This document shows, one piece after another, positions 9,720 to 33,610 of a DNA stretch of 49,912 nucleotides. The notes below the pieces were generated by a model that was not told the DNA's origin, ran no database searches, and was given only the letters and a program-made list of their open reading frames with translations. Source of the DNA: an uncultured bacterium. GTDB taxonomy: Bacteria; Bacillota; Clostridia; Lachnospirales; Lachnospiraceae. A program made the position numbers and the translations under genes. The stretch spans positions 1-49,912 of the forward strand of contig CANDBT010000033.1 in assembly GCA_947383005.1 (NCBI GenBank), read 5' to 3'. The stretch's first letter is position 1, and each line of letters begins with the position of its first letter.

Positions 9720-11111
9720 TTATAATTCGCAGTTATTAACTGTACGTGGGAAAGGAATAACATCACGGATATTGCTCATACCGGTCAGGTACATGACGCA
9801 GCGTTCAAAACCGAGTCCGAAACCGGCGTGACGGTTGGAACCGTATTTGCGCAGATCCAGATAGAAAGAATAGTCCTCTTCCTTAAGGCCCAGCTCGTGC
9901 ATGCGCGCAAGCAACGTATCGTAATTATCTTCACGCTGGCTTCCGCCGATGATTTCGCCGATACCGGGAACCAGGCAGTCCATGGCGGCAACGGTCCGGT
10001 TGTCAGGATTCATCTTCATATAAAAAGCTTTGATTTCCTTGGGATAATCCGTGACAAAAACAGGGCGCTTAAAGATTTGTTCGGTCAGGTAGCGCTCGTG
10101 TTCGGTCTGCAGGTCGCAGCCCCAGGAAACTTTATAGTCAAATTGTTCATTGTTTTTCTCAAGAAGCCCAATCGCTTCTGTATAGGTGATATGGGCAAAT
10201 TCGGAGTTCAGGACACTGTTAAGCCGGTCCAACAGACCTTTGTCAATGAAGCTGTTGAAAAAGGCCATTTCCTCCGGAGCGTTTTCCAGCACATAACGGA
10301 TAATGTGTTTCAGCATTCCTTCGGCTAAATCCATATTGTCCTGTAAATCGGCAAAGGCCATTTCTGGTTCAATCATCCAGAATTCGGCAGCATGGCGGGT
10401 GGTATTGGAATTTTCTGCACGAAAGGTCGGTCCGAAAGTGTATACATTCCGGAAAGCCATCGCATAAGTTTCTACATTAAGCTGGCCGCTGACGGTCAGA
10501 TTGGTAGGCTTGCTGAAGAAATCCTGGGAAAAATCAACGGAGCCGTCATTATTGCGGGGCAGGTTATTCAGATCCATCGTAGTTACCTGAAACATCTCGC
10601 CGGCGCCTTCACAGTCACTTCCGGTGATAATCGGCGTATGCACATAGACAAAATTCCTTTCCTGGAAATATTGATGGATCGCATAAGCAATCAGCGAGCG
10701 AACACGGAAAACCGCCTGGAAGGTGTTGGTGCGGGCACGCAGGTGGGTGATGGTACGAAGGAATTCCAAGGTGTGGCGTTTTTTCTGCAAAGGATAGTCG
10801 GGTGCGGAAGCGCCTTCCACCGTTACCTCAACGGCCTGTATTTCAAAAGGCTGCTTGGCCTGGGGAGTAGCTACCAGGGTGCCTCTGACCAGAATAGCGC
10901 TACCCACATTAAGTTTGCTGATTTCGCTAAAATTAGCGAGGGTATCATGATAGACGATTTGTAATGGTTCAAAATAGCTGCCGTCGCTGACCACAATAAA
11001 CCCAAAAGATTTGGAATCGCGGATGCTGCGTACCCAGCCGCCAATAAAAACTTCCTTGTCCAGATATTTCCCCCTATTCTTATATAATTCTTTTACGGTG
11101 ATCAGATTCAT
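9720..11111 (-). CDS. asnS: Asparaginyl-tRNA synthetase
   Basis: The 463-residue class II aminoacyl-tRNA synthetase attaches asparagine to tRNA-Asn. An N-terminal OB-fold anticodon-binding domain ([19 protein letters not shown]) is followed by the catalytic core. Class II motif 2 appears as [22 protein letters not shown], and motif 3 as [15 protein letters not shown] near the C-terminus. Length and the ending [10 protein letters not shown] are typical of bacterial AsnRS, not AspRS, which is longer. An AAAGGAG ribosome binding site lies upstream of the ATG, and a good promoter is at 11191-11219 on the minus strand. Confidence 0.95.
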
Positions 11112-21393: not shown

Positions 21394-22776
21394 ATGGATA
21401 TGGGGGAAGTGATTCATTTTCTTGTTTGGGGGCCATGGACATTGGTATTATTTTTGGGGACAGGGTTGTGGTTCACGATAAAGTCCGGATGTTTCCAGTT
21501 TTTAGGATTTAGGTATTGGTGGAAGAACACTGCGGGAAGTTTGTGGAGAAGGAATAGGGAAGAGAATCCTCGTACAATTACTCAATTTCAGTCTGCCTGC
21601 ACAGCATTGGCGGCAACCATTGGCACGGGAAATATTGTGGGAGTGGCTACGGCTCTGACTGCCGGCGGGCCTGGTGCTTTGTTTTGGATGTGGGTATCGG
21701 CAGCGATTGGCATGATGACCGCTTATGCGGAAACCAGTCTTGGGCAGCAATATCGTTATCGGCAGAAAGACGGTCATTGGCTGTGCGGCCCGATGATCTA
21801 TATGGAGCGTGGGTTGGGATGCCCGCTTTTGGGAATCCTTTATGCGTTGTTTGCCTTTTGTGCCTCTTTGGGGATGGGGAGTATGGTACAATCAAATTCC
21901 ATGAGCGGGACGTTGCATTATTCGGTACATGTGCCCCCGTTGTTGAGTGCGTTTTTAATTACCCTGTTGGCAGGGATAGTGATTTTAGGGGGAATTGGGA
22001 GGATATCCAGGGTCTCCGAACGCTTGATGCCCATATCGGCAGGAATTTATGTAATATTCTCCGTGATGGTTATATTGTCTTATTGGGAATACCTTCCGCG
22101 GGTTTTAGCGGCGGTTTTCCGAGAGGCGTTTCGCATCGAATCGGTAGGAGGAGGAGTCAGCGGATTTTTATTGAGCCGTAGTGTGCGCTATGGTTTGTCC
22201 CGGGGAGTGTTTTCCAATGAAGCGGGCTTGGGGAGTTTGGCAGTACTTCATGGGGCGGCGGAAAAGACGACCCCAAAGGAACAAGGCATGTGGGCGATGT
22301 TTGAAGTGTTTTTTGATACGGTAGTGATTTGCACATTGACTGCATTGGTAATTTTGTGTGTAGGGTATGGGGAGAGAGATTATGCCGGAACCTTCCGTCT
22401 GCTTGGGGAAGACGGCGCGGCATTGGCGATTGCCTGTTTTCGGGTTCGTTTTGGAGGTGCGGGAGAAGCGCTGGTATCTGGCGCTATGGCAGTATTTGCC
22501 TTTGCAACCATTATTGCCTGGTATTATCTGGGGCGACAGACGTTTCATTATCTGGCGGAACGGTTGTGTCCCCGCTACTTTTCAGGAGAAAAAGGTGAGG
22601 GGCTATATTTGGTTTTATATTTACTGGCGGTATTTATCGGAGGTATTTGCCGGGTAGAGGCAGTTTGGCTGGTGTCAGATGTAGCTAACGGCCTGATGGC
22701 ATATCCGAATTTGCTGTCATTGCTTCTGCTTTCACGACAGGTGGCATTTCCCGGAATAGATATGGCTGGCGGTTAA
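21394..22776 (+). CDS. Amino acid carrier protein, AGCS family (sodium:alanine/glycine symporter)
   Basis: The 460-residue integral membrane protein imports small neutral amino acids with Na+. Family motifs are clear: FLGTGLWFTIKSG near the N-terminus, FQSACTALAATIGTGNIVGVATAL (the family's binding-site helix), GPGALFWMWVSA and FSNEAGLGSLAVLHGAA. About ten or eleven hydrophobic segments can be counted. No strong ribosome binding site precedes the ATG at 21394, only GGCGGCC, so expression may be low or the start slightly different (ATG at 21400). Confidence 0.85.
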   Translation: MDMGEVIHFLVWGPWTLVLFLGTGLWFTIKSGCFQFLGFRYWWKNTAGSLWRRNREENPRTITQFQSACTALAATIGTGNIVGVATALTAGGPGALFWMWVSAAIGMMTAYAETSLGQQYRYRQKDGHWLCGPMIYMERGLGCPLLGILYALFAFCASLGMGSMVQSNSMSGTLHYSVHVPPLLSAFLITLLAGIVILGGIGRISRVSERLMPISAGIYVIFSVMVILSYWEYLPRVLAAVFREAFRIESVGGGVSGFLLSRSVRYGLSRGVFSNEAGLGSLAVLHGAAEKTTPKEQGMWAMFEVFFDTVVICTLTALVILCVGYGERDYAGTFRLLGEDGAALAIACFRVRFGGAGEALVSGAMAVFAFATIIAWYYLGRQTFHYLAERLCPRYFSGEKGEGLYLVLYLLAVFIGGICRVEAVWLVSDVANGLMAYPNLLSLLLLSRQVAFPGIDMAGG

Positions 22777-22877
22777 GGGGCTGCGAGGACATCCCCATAT
22801 AGATTGCCTGTACGATTTGCAGATTAACAATCAACACGATTAGGCGAATAATCATAATGACAATAGGAAGAAAGCGT

Positions 22878-22906
22878 TTGACAAAGAAGGAGAAATCAAG
22901 TATACT
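22878..22906 (+). promoter_or_regulatory. Consensus promoter upstream of the riboswitch
   Basis: A perfect TTGACA at 22878-22883 and TATACT at 22901-22906 are 17 bases apart. The predicted start near 22913 coincides with the first base of the riboswitch-like leader. Confidence 0.8.
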
Positions 22907-22912
22907 AGATTC

Positions 22913-23012
22913 ACAAAAGGGAGTAGCCTGCATCTGTAAGATGTTTTGCAATATCGTCATCACGGCTGTGAGTGAAAACAGTCCGGTATGCATAGAATAA
23001 GCGAGACTTTTG
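22913..23012 (+). ncRNA. yybP-ykoY (manganese) riboswitch aptamer
   Basis: The leader starts with AAAAGGGAGTAGC, the hallmark 5' strand of the yybP-ykoY class, and ends with AGCGAGACTTTT, the matching 3' strand. AAAAG and CTTTT pair as P1. Between them are GTCATCACGGC and two further helices, consistent with the class. Known members bind Mn2+ at the junction of these two conserved loops and switch on Mn2+ efflux genes. The gene it precedes is a cation exchanger. Recognised by eye; a covariance-model search (yybP-ykoY family) would settle it. Confidence 0.78.
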
Positions 23013-23050
23013 TTGCGTGATATGAGCGCGGCAGGAGTTTCGCTTTTTTT
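23001..23050 (+). terminator. Riboswitch-controlled terminator
   Basis: GCGAGACT (23001-23008) pairs with AGTTTCGC (23036-23043), followed by seven T. The 5' arm is the same stretch that forms the 3' half of riboswitch helix P1, so ligand-stabilised P1 should block termination and let transcription reach the exchanger gene. Confidence 0.75.
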
Positions 23051-23214
23051 GTATCATAGGTAAGTACGTCCTATGATACAAAACGCTCCGCGTGGTTGCT
23101 GAGTGCCAGTGGCACTCGTTTAGCAACGGCTGAAGTGGAACGTAGAGCGCACTCCGCGCAAAGGAAGATGGCTGCTGGCGCAGCCGCGCTCCGGCGCGAG
23201 AGTCCGGCAAGCAG
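23051..23214. repeat. Repeat E1 with inserted module C2
   Basis: TATCATAGG/CCTATGATA form a hairpin at 23052-23080. A GC-rich part (AGCGCACTCCGCGCAAAGG through GAGAGTCCGGCAAGC) is shared nearly base for base with 46180-46254. Module C2 (23095-23144, hairpin arms GAGTGCCA and TGGCACTC around one G) sits inside E1 but is absent from the 46143 copy. It lies in the transcribed leader between the riboswitch and the exchanger gene. Confidence 0.75.
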
Positions 23215-23279
23215 GGAAAAACTTTCCAAATACTCGATTTGCAGGTAATTTCGGAAAACAACTCAAACAGGAGGGAAAA

Positions 23280-24203
23280 ATGAAAATTATGGTTTATGTA
23301 ATGCTGGCGGCTGGTTTTGTGCTTCTAATCAAAGGAGCGGATTTTTTTGTGGAGGCAAGCTCCTCGGTTGCCAGGAAACTTCGGATACCCAGCATAATCG
23401 TTGGGCTGACAGTTGTGGCATTTGGAACCAGCGCACCGGAGCTAGCGGTCAGTACCGCTGCTTCTCTGGCAGGAAATAATGAGATTGCAGTAAGCAATGT
23501 TATCGGATCGAATATTTTTAACTTGCTGGCAGTATTGGGGGCATGCGGCGCCATTCGTGCGTTTCCGGTCCGGCTGCGTTGGGATTTTGCTGCTGCTATT
23601 GCCGCAGCGGTGCTCCTGTTGTTTATGATCTTGCGGGATATGTTTCTCAGCCGCATAGAAGCATTTGTCCTATTGGGGATGTTCATCGCCTTTTTGGTGA
23701 TGATTGTAAAAGACGGTTTGAAGAACCGGGTTGAGGCAGAAGAAGAAAAAAAGACAATACCGTTTTTGCTGTGTTTGGTTTATGGGGCAGGTGGTTTGGC
23801 GGCGATTGTCTGTGGAGGAGATTTGGTAGTGGATTGTGCCAGCCAGATTGCGGCGAATTTTGGTTTGAGCCAAACATTGATCGGATTGACTGTGGTGGCG
23901 ATGGGAACATCCCTTCCGGAGCTGGTGACTTCTGTTGTGGCGTCCCGGAAAGGGGAAAACGCGATGGCGTTGGGAAACGTCCTTGGTTCAAACATATTTA
24001 ATGTATTGATGGTTTTGGCCATATCGGCGGCTGTAAAGCCTATAGCAGTGAATTTGTTCGCTGTTGTGGATGCGGCTTGTTTAGTGGCATTTAGTTTGAT
24101 AGCATTGATTTTGTGTCGGACGAGGGATCAGATCAGCCAGAAGGAGGGGGTGGCAATGCTGGTGATGTATACGGTATATATGGTTTATATATGTATCCGT
24201 TAA
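23280..24203 (+). CDS. CaCA-family cation exchanger (YrbG-like), probable Mn2+/Ca2+ efflux
   Basis: The 307-residue membrane protein has the two inverted alpha-repeats of the calcium/cation antiporter superfamily: VAFGTSAPELAVS (residues about 44-56) with VIGSNIFNLLAV, and VAMGTSLPELVTS (about 205-217) with VLGSNIFNVLMV. The acidic Glu in each P-E-L forms the ion site. About ten transmembrane segments are visible. Annotated relatives are called K+-dependent Na+/Ca2+ exchangers, but control by a yybP-ykoY riboswitch here points to Mn2+ export as the physiological role (inference). AGGAGGG lies before the ATG. Confidence 0.88.
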   Translation: MKIMVYVMLAAGFVLLIKGADFFVEASSSVARKLRIPSIIVGLTVVAFGTSAPELAVSTAASLAGNNEIAVSNVIGSNIFNLLAVLGACGAIRAFPVRLRWDFAAAIAAAVLLLFMILRDMFLSRIEAFVLLGMFIAFLVMIVKDGLKNRVEAEEEKKTIPFLLCLVYGAGGLAAIVCGGDLVVDCASQIAANFGLSQTLIGLTVVAMGTSLPELVTSVVASRKGENAMALGNVLGSNIFNVLMVLAISAAVKPIAVNLFAVVDAACLVAFSLIALILCRTRDQISQKEGVAMLVMYTVYMVYICIR

Positions 24204-24214
24204 TTGTATATGGT

Positions 24215-24275
24215 CAGTACTACCTTGCGAAAATTCCGGTGAATTCGGCACTCGCTATTTCCGCAAGGCAATATT
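24215..24275. repeat. Palindromic element A2
   Basis: The 61-bp copy has left end CAGTACTACCTTGCGAAAA, core GTGAATTCGGCACTCGCT and right end ATTTCCGCAAGGCAATATT. The right end has drifted from the perfect terminal inverted repeat seen in A1. It lacks the 150-bp internal block of A1. Confidence 0.75.
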
Positions 24276-24296
24276 AATGCAACGCTGTATTAGTTT

Positions 24297-24329
24297 GTTT
24301 CTGTTCACATTGTACCTGTGAACGGCAAT
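24297..24329. repeat. Palindromic repeat B2
   Basis: GTTTCTGTTCACA and its near complement TGTGAACGGCAA flank a short spacer, matching the palindrome at 15350-15382 with a few changes. It directly follows A2. Confidence 0.55.
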
Positions 24330-24344
24330 TGTTATTTCACAACG

Positions 24345-24373
24345 AAAGACCCCTCCGCAGCGGAGGGGTCTTT
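24345..24373. terminator. Perfect 13-bp terminator hairpin
   Basis: AAAGACCCCTCCG and its exact complement surround a CAG loop. The stem itself ends in TTT on both strands. It ends the exchanger transcript. The 24374-24619 stretch that follows holds no recognisable gene. Confidence 0.85.
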
Positions 24374-24483
24374 CTAAACTACAATTTATAAGAGGTTAAA
24401 AAAGGGAGGAGAGCTGATAATTCGATTACCAGCCCGAGTATTATGAAAAAAATCTTATAAGCATCTCATATTCAACGGCATCA

Positions 24484-24530
24484 ATGGTTGCTTACGATTA
24501 TAGTATACGCAGTAATCGTGAAGAAACCAT
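24484..24530. other. Long imperfect palindrome upstream of the esterase cluster
   Basis: ATGGTTGCTTACGATTA (24484-24500) pairs with TAATCGTGAAGAAACCAT (24513-24530) with one mismatch and one bulge, around TAGTATACGCAG. It lies about 90 bases before the promoter at 24620 and could be an operator or a DNA cruciform. No repeat partner was seen elsewhere in the window. Confidence 0.45.
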
Positions 24531-33204: not shown

Positions 33205-33610
33205 TTGAAAGTCCTGGACGGCAGCCATGATGAGAGCAAGCTCGCTTGCATCGAATCATAGATATCGGCCAGGCAAGCTGGTATGAGCAAGTAGGCCGAC
33301 AGGCCGGATTGCGAATACCGGCGGCGATTGCGTGAGGGCAAGGCCCGGAGCAATCGGCTTTCATAGGGTGGCTGGTGCAACATCAAAGGTTGCATGGAGG
33401 TTTACTTTGAAAGTGCTGCATGGCAGCCATGGTGAATGCATGCTCGCATGCAATGAACCATAGATTTCGTGCAGCCAAGCCGGATGGAGTCAAGTAGGCC
33501 GATAGGCGGATTGCAAATACCGACGGCGATTGGGTGAGGGCAAAGCCCGGAGCAATCGGCTTTCATAGGGTGGTCGGTGCAACGTCAAAGGTCACATGGA
33601 AGTTTACTTT
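33205..33610 (+). repeat. Two tandem ~200-bp module D units (D2, D3)
   Basis: Unit D2 (about 33205-33404) and D3 (33405-33610) share the same order of segments: TTTGAAAGT, GGCAGCCATG, a hairpin, AAGTAGGCCGA, GCGGATTGC, CGATTG-loop-CAATCG, CTTTCATAGGGTGG, GCAAC-TCAAAGG and GAAGTTTAC. They differ at many positions. The first hairpin keeps pairing although its bases changed (ATGAT/ATCAT and GCAAGC/GCTTGC in D2; ATGGT/ACCAT and GCATGC/GCATGC in D3). A truncated third copy is at 28132. The units fill the space between glnB and amtB. Confidence 0.85.

Follow-up and report, generated by a model that had tools for sequence, protein, structure and literature searches.

The window, i.e. the whole stretch of DNA analysed here (49,912 nucleotides from an uncultured Lachnospiraceae bacterium), contains an element of the yybP-ykoY riboswitch class upstream of a gene for a CaCA-family cation exchanger. 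The occurrence of such an element before a CaCA gene, first noticed in a first-pass annotation of this DNA, is confirmed. We regard it as probable that the element is a transcriptional ON switch, by which Mn2+ turns on an exchanger that most likely exports Mn2+. The switch class and a Mn2+-exporting CaCA partner are both already known from other bacteria. The features of the locus, with the evidence for each in brackets (models and alignments are described below), are the following:

22878..22906, + strand: sigma-70-type promoter, TTGACA-17-TATACT (consensus scan, 11 of 12 matches; weak evidence alone)
22911..23015, + strand: aptamer of the yybP-ykoY class without P4 and with an L-type loop (leave-one-out covariance model R2)
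22913..22919, + strand: 5' strand of P1.1, the switch helix, partner 23007-23013 (helix 1, covariation on A2)
22920..22925, + strand: L1 loop GGAGTA (conservation in family elements)
22926..22927, + strand: 5' strand of P1.2, partner 23001-23002 (helix 2, 92.6% paired)
22930..22944, + strand: P2 hairpin (helices 3 and 4, 89.9 and 91.4% paired)
22947..22992, + strand: P3 arm, P3.1 22947-22955/22985-22992 and P3.2 22964-22969/22978-22983 (helices 5 and 6)
22955..22964, + strand: L3 metal-binding loop CGTCATCACG (sequence; metal role by comparison)
22993..22998, + strand: six-base joiner replacing helix P4 (R2 alignment)
22999..23050, + strand: intrinsic terminator, stem 22999-23045, T7 23044-23050 (scan, folding, recurrence)
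23007..23013, + strand: 3' strand of P1.1, common to the terminator (folding, R2 alignment)
23047..23215, + strand: multi-copy repeat, inverted arms 23047-23060/23070-23083 (genome matches; arms seen)
23269..23275, + strand: ribosome binding site AGGAGGG (sequence)
23280..24203, + strand: CaCA-family cation exchanger, 307 aa (Pfam, NCBIfam, NCX_Mj alignment)

The promoter is the best of five promoter-like sites found by the consensus scan within 22300-24500; as shuffles already average 3.5 sites, the scan by itself proves little. It is followed by the conserved ends of the class, AAAAGGGAGTAGC at 22915-22927 and AGCGAGACTTTT at 23000-23011, separated by 72 bases, which is the succession that the first-pass annotation had described. 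The aptamer spans 105 bases and lies at the predicted transcript start. The gene upstream (21394-22776) encodes an AgcS amino-acid carrier.

The Rfam covariance model of the class (RF00080), by which the annotation expected the element to be recognized, does not match the window at its gathering score or at any other threshold tried, even at E 5. At E 1 it matches none of 20 loci, the window's own included, nor the stretch with E. coli alx; E. coli mntP scores 41.6 bits, below the cut-off of 45. In 120 genomes of the window's family no match exceeds the cut-off, and the four matches found at E 0.01 all lie before mntP genes. The absent Rfam match is an outcome by which the annotation would have been refuted, but since RF00080 also misses E. 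coli alx, it does not decide membership; the model is blind to the loop type of the window, and so overlooks one of the two loop types of the class described below.

Relatives were collected from 299 family genomes with a pattern of three short motifs, the reversed pattern serving as a chance control. The pattern gives 55 matches in 52 genomes and the reversed pattern five in four, so that chance may explain a few of the 55. Fifty-three of them were searched with the model built from those rows, and each scores at least 44.5 bits. In the alignment A2 (54 rows including the window; L075, whose loop is of the other type, was omitted) 82.7% of the cells are paired, compared with 67.5% in shuffles, and 266 cells are changed on both sides, compared with 102.5 (none of 500 shuffles as high). 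Both-side change is seen in 24 of 29 pairs (20.2 in shuffles), and when the partners are slid out of register, only 35-45% of the cells are paired. Two covariance models of the relatives were used: R1, which includes the window row, and R2, built from 55 rows with the window left out. R2 scores 82.7 bits (E 6.6e-21) on the window, at 22911-23015, E-values of this model being rough by the tool's own warning, and it recovers both E. coli leaders upstream of their genes (alx 30.7 bits, mntP 27.7 bits). The leave-one-out match and the covariation bear out the class that had been assigned, and the window element is an ordinary, well-supported new member of it.

Helix 1 (P1.1) is paired in 90.5% of the A2 cells, with both-side change in five of its seven pairs, while helices 5 and 6 (P3.1 and P3.2), paired in 69.6 and 77.9%, are the least supported part of the alignment. 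L1 (GGGAGUA at 22919-22925 and GAGA at 23003-23006) and the L3 adenosine, by which the class is recognized, are both conserved; GGGAGTA is present in 125 of 126 family elements, all of them found by a model expecting that motif. The L3 loop of the window reads CGUCAUCACG, and base five, A22959, corresponds to A41 of L. lactis, an adenosine described as contacting Mn2+ through N7 (PMC6754395); by sequence comparison, the CGUCA of the window thus keeps the equivalent of the Mn2+ contact. The four-way junction with P4 is absent from the window element, in which the six-base joiner takes the place of P4. Among 55 relatives the joiner measures 5-11 nt in 49 (6 nt in 33) and 13-20 in six, and a small hairpin can be folded in four of these longer joiners. 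A three-way junction has already been published for S. pneumoniae mgtA, where it precedes a Mn2+/Ca2+ transporter (PMC9495176), so P4 is not required and its absence is not new; the mgtA gene encodes a P-type ATPase, and the likeness is one of description. Folded alone, the aptamer part of the window does not exceed what chance would give (z -0.98; 29 of 200 shuffles do as well), and its support is therefore comparative, coming from the covariance model and the covariation.

The terminator hairpin (61 nt, -29.8 kcal/mol) has a z of -7.03, with none of 200 shuffles as good. The annotation had the 3' end of the element pairing alternatively into a terminator with seven T, and this holds for the stem at 22999-23045 with its T-run at 23044-23050. 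The 3' strand of P1.1 sits inside the 5' arm of the terminator, as is expected of transcriptional members of the class, and the two structures compete for it. This design is conserved in the family elements: a downstream strand pairing with the end of the aptamer and followed by T is found in 109 of 125, compared with 35 of 625 shuffled downstream stretches (one of the 126 elements was omitted, its flank being too short).

For the L. lactis yybP-ykoY riboswitch (yoaB) it is reported that Mn2+ stabilises P1.1 and that termination is thereby prevented (PMC11087558). This element resembles that of the window in L1, in L3 with A41, in the opposition of P1.1 and terminator and in the transcriptional ON control proposed here (PMC6754395, PMC11087558), and its loop, as quoted in PMC6754395, is of the window's type; unlike the window, it has a four-way junction and precedes a P-type ATPase gene. 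By analogy, RNA polymerase would begin at about 22913 and transcribe the aptamer first. At high Mn2+ the ion would bridge L1 and L3 and stabilise the weak P1.1 (22913-22919/23007-23013), so that the terminator would be deprived of a strand it needs and transcription would read through into the CaCA gene. At low Mn2+ the shared strand would enter the terminator, and transcription would end at about 23050. Accumulation of Mn2+ would in this way very probably switch the exchanger gene on, and the exchanger would most likely export Mn2+, perhaps Ca2+ too.

The gene itself was expected to be of the Na+/Ca2+ exchanger type, which the Pfam match to Na_Ca_ex (E 1.4e-62) confirms. The protein also matches NCBIfam TIGR00367 with 235.9 bits (curated cut-off 179.65), contains two Na_Ca_ex stretches with scores above the curated cut-offs, as members of the CaCA family do, and aligns with the solved NCX_Mj at 6.5e-34. 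In this alignment the GTS-PE motif is kept in both halves and asparagine 241 corresponds to aspartate 240 of NCX_Mj; we take the GTS-PE residues and position 241 (NCX_Mj 240) to be ion-binding residues. The only mntP gene of the genome (in L233) has no visible aptamer in its upstream stretch.

Mn2+ export by a CaCA protein under a yybP-ykoY riboswitch has been published for B. pertussis, and is a precedent for the step from switch to export. There the riboswitch stands, as in the window, before a calcium:cation antiporter family gene (BP3410); Mn2+ is reported to induce the gene and the protein to export Mn2+, calcium being described as without effect on expression (PMC8546581). B. pertussis is, however, a beta-proteobacterium, and the likeness is one of riboswitch class and gene family. 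V. vulnificus YrbG is presumably a CaCA exchanger as well. Its gene, like that of the window, is assigned to yybP-ykoY control, there by prediction (PMC13274385), in a source that also includes Mn2+ exporters in the TerC family. One Mn2+ riboswitch, before a P-type ATPase gene, is described in C. difficile (PMC11477304), and UPF0016 genes are reported to be under this riboswitch in 328 of 333 screened strains having UPF0016 (PMC7380456). Matches to 'CACA' in passages of PMC8754126 are letters of primers.

Searching 120 family genomes with R1 yields 126 elements in 79 of them, the window's own included. Judged by their coordinates, 30 of them precede mntP, 18 CaCA, four mntP with CaCA following it, and 74 neither; CaCA is thus downstream of 22 of the 126, and on the remaining sides of the listed CaCA and mntP genes no element occurs within 1500 bases. 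The first downstream gene, with labels resting on one or two reference proteins per kind, encodes a P-type ATPase in 38 cases, mntP in 34, CaCA in 19, OAD_beta in nine and a small unknown protein in nine, with eight none or other and the last nine divided among six further kinds. The family set includes eight listed mntP-CaCA pairs, six of them with a model match upstream, and there are two CaCA-UPF0016 pairs (L030 and L031); the one UPF0016 protein checked is Pfam GDT1. In a phylum set the model matches 70 of 199 genomes, and 29 of the 92 matches were examined (CaCA 10, P-type ATPase 7, UPF0016 5, OAD_beta 2, CitMHS 1, others 4, two of the latter TerC-like, one checked in Pfam). When named genomes were scanned for the exact loop of the window, at least 117 stretches were obtained, 80 of them listed. 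Among the matches listed, 40 precede CaCA genes, including loci of Roseburia inulinivorans, Diplocloster agilis, a Blautia and several Oscillibacter records, and seven precede P-type ATPases; 26 are unlabelled, and by eye 21 of these have TerC-like starts, mostly in Dyella and relatives, while four start like Na+/Pi cotransporters (one protein of each kind was checked in Pfam). Many CaCA exchangers of gut and environmental Bacillota hence join the genes behind this riboswitch class, and their substrate becomes testable.

Some of the downstream genes are worth recording separately. OAD_beta, the beta subunit of a Na+-pump decarboxylase, is unexpected for a Mn2+ switch and comes first behind the elements at L045, L081, L103, L111 and others. 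The small protein of about 150 residues that is first behind nine of the 126 elements (e.g. L042, L062, L070) has no Pfam match in the one member searched. SPFH/Band 7 proteins stand behind two of the 126. The genes resembling Na+/Pi cotransporters behind the window's loop (L272, L281, L305, L312) belong to three Erysipelotrichaceae and one Firmicutes record.

Two types of metal-binding loop occur, and the type goes with the gene: one is found in mntP leaders, the other, which the window has (L-type), in CaCA and ATPase leaders. The loop of the mntP leaders is similar to the E. coli mntP loop (CAACA, then UGG). E. coli alx, found by R2, has the window's loop type (CGUCAUUACG..CCGG), but carries about 37 more bases at the place of P4 and precedes a TerC-family gene. 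Typed by script, with three of the 126 elements unclassified and dropped, the mntP-type loop is present in 32 of 34 mntP-first elements and in 18 of 89 others (Fisher p 2e-14, by a rule devised with the loops already in view and on rows that are not independent, a leader being passed on together with its gene). The other two mntP leaders, with the loops CGACAUAAUGG and CGACAUACUGG, are by eye of the same mntP type; by eye, the window's type is absent from all 34 mntP leaders in the family set. In the phylum set (one of 29 loci from the window's family), typing by eye finds the mntP-type loop in all five UPF0016 leaders and in none of the 24 others. CaCA-first leaders are by script 14 of L-type and five of the other type; one of the five, the G037 leader with the loop CGUCAACACG, is L-like by eye. 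Both types occur among P-type ATPase leaders (26 L-type, 11 other type, one unclassified). No published report that loop type and gene are linked was met in a limited literature search.

The mntP-CaCA operons were considered as proof of Mn2+ export by the window's exchanger, a role that the CaCA tree weakens. In the tree of 59 proteins (eight of 67 rows, with no matched stretch longer than 250 residues, were dropped; bootstrap is unsettled and long branches meet), a clade of 13 (100/99) holds all seven mntP-operon rows, three of the five other-loop rows and three unlinked proteins. The exchanger of the window belongs to another clade, made up of 12 L-type and seven unlinked rows (97/89), so the operons say less about it than seems.

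Mn2+ is the likely ligand of the window element by analogy: E. coli alx and L. lactis share its loop type, TerC genes carry its exact loop, and the B. pertussis CaCA protein is a Mn2+ exporter. Counted against the proposed Mn2+ riboswitch as a whole are the silence of RF00080, the chance-level fold of the aptamer, the lack of the window's loop among the mntP leaders, the position of the mntP-operon CaCA proteins in another clade, the genome's own mntP without a visible aptamer, and the tighter binding of Ca2+ than of Mn2+ reported for S. pneumoniae mgtA (PMC9495176). An alternative is an element of the same class and mechanism in which this loop type in Bacillota reads Ca2+, or Ca2+ and Mn2+, and the exchanger exports Ca2+. 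That loop type follows the gene, with the other loop in mntP and UPF0016 leaders, that genomes G008, G102 and G118 have CaCA genes under both types, and that the exchanger keeps the CaCA motifs would fit this, as would the reported action of both Mn2+ and Ca2+ on S. pneumoniae mgtA (PMC9495176, PMC11434433) and the expectation in PMC7266159 of yybP variants with other divalent ligands. We nevertheless consider a Ca2+-reading element unlikely, since the Mn2+-contacting adenosine is kept in the window, alx and L. lactis have the same loop type, the exact loop precedes TerC genes in Dyella among the matches listed, and the B. pertussis CaCA gene is reported to answer Mn2+ and not calcium (PMC8546581). 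It is similarly doubtful that the loops define two functional subclasses, with the mntP/UPF0016 type reading Mn2+ and the window's type, in many Bacillota, reading Ca2+ or Ca2+/Mn2+ and controlling CaCA and Ca2+-type ATPases. The link of loop type to gene offers a concrete test of an issue raised in PMC7266159, namely that yybP RNAs responding to divalent ions besides Mn2+ may exist.

The locus would be a relic if the multi-copy repeat, which sits between the terminator and the start codon, had cut the gene off from its leader, or if the leader had lost its ability to switch. Searching 23046-23250 in the same genome gives 64 match pieces (own and split copies counted), the best other copy having 93% identity across 167 bases. 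The 11 copies compared agree from around TATCATAGG onwards and have different flanks ahead of it, so the repeat starts at the T-tract or just behind it, and the aptamer and terminator are whole. With the ribosome site also intact, the annotation was right that the repeat had not broken the switch; as the element is in addition among the best-scoring members (R1 83.6 bits; best of 55 others 88.2), a relic is quite improbable. A simple terminator with a chance likeness to the class would account for the missing RF00080 match, but is scarcely credible given the leave-one-out match, by a model that also recovers both E. coli members, and the recurrence of the element before transporter genes.

Both here and in copy L235, a terminator-like hairpin with a T-tract precedes the repeat, which may prefer such sites. 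At L156 (G046:C1:2069179-2069280), before the small unknown protein mentioned above, an element has CGUCU in place of CGUCA, and hence U at the Mn2+-contacting position; it is a possible ligand variant. Two further matches in the window, one to Rfam MIR868 and a weak second match of R2 at 10864 (E 0.41), were taken as chance. The Rfam family SSRC10 (Streptococcus sRNA 10, RF02617) overlaps aptamer and terminator, below its cut-off, in four of 20 loci (L037 1497-1612, L038 1461-1585, L056 1469-1591, L058 1494-1613), and possibly describes a yybP-ykoY leader that has been named separately. Elsewhere in the window, two adjoining Clostridiales-1 RNAs (RF01699) lie at 33206-33363 and 33408-33565, with 113.9 and 73.7 bits.
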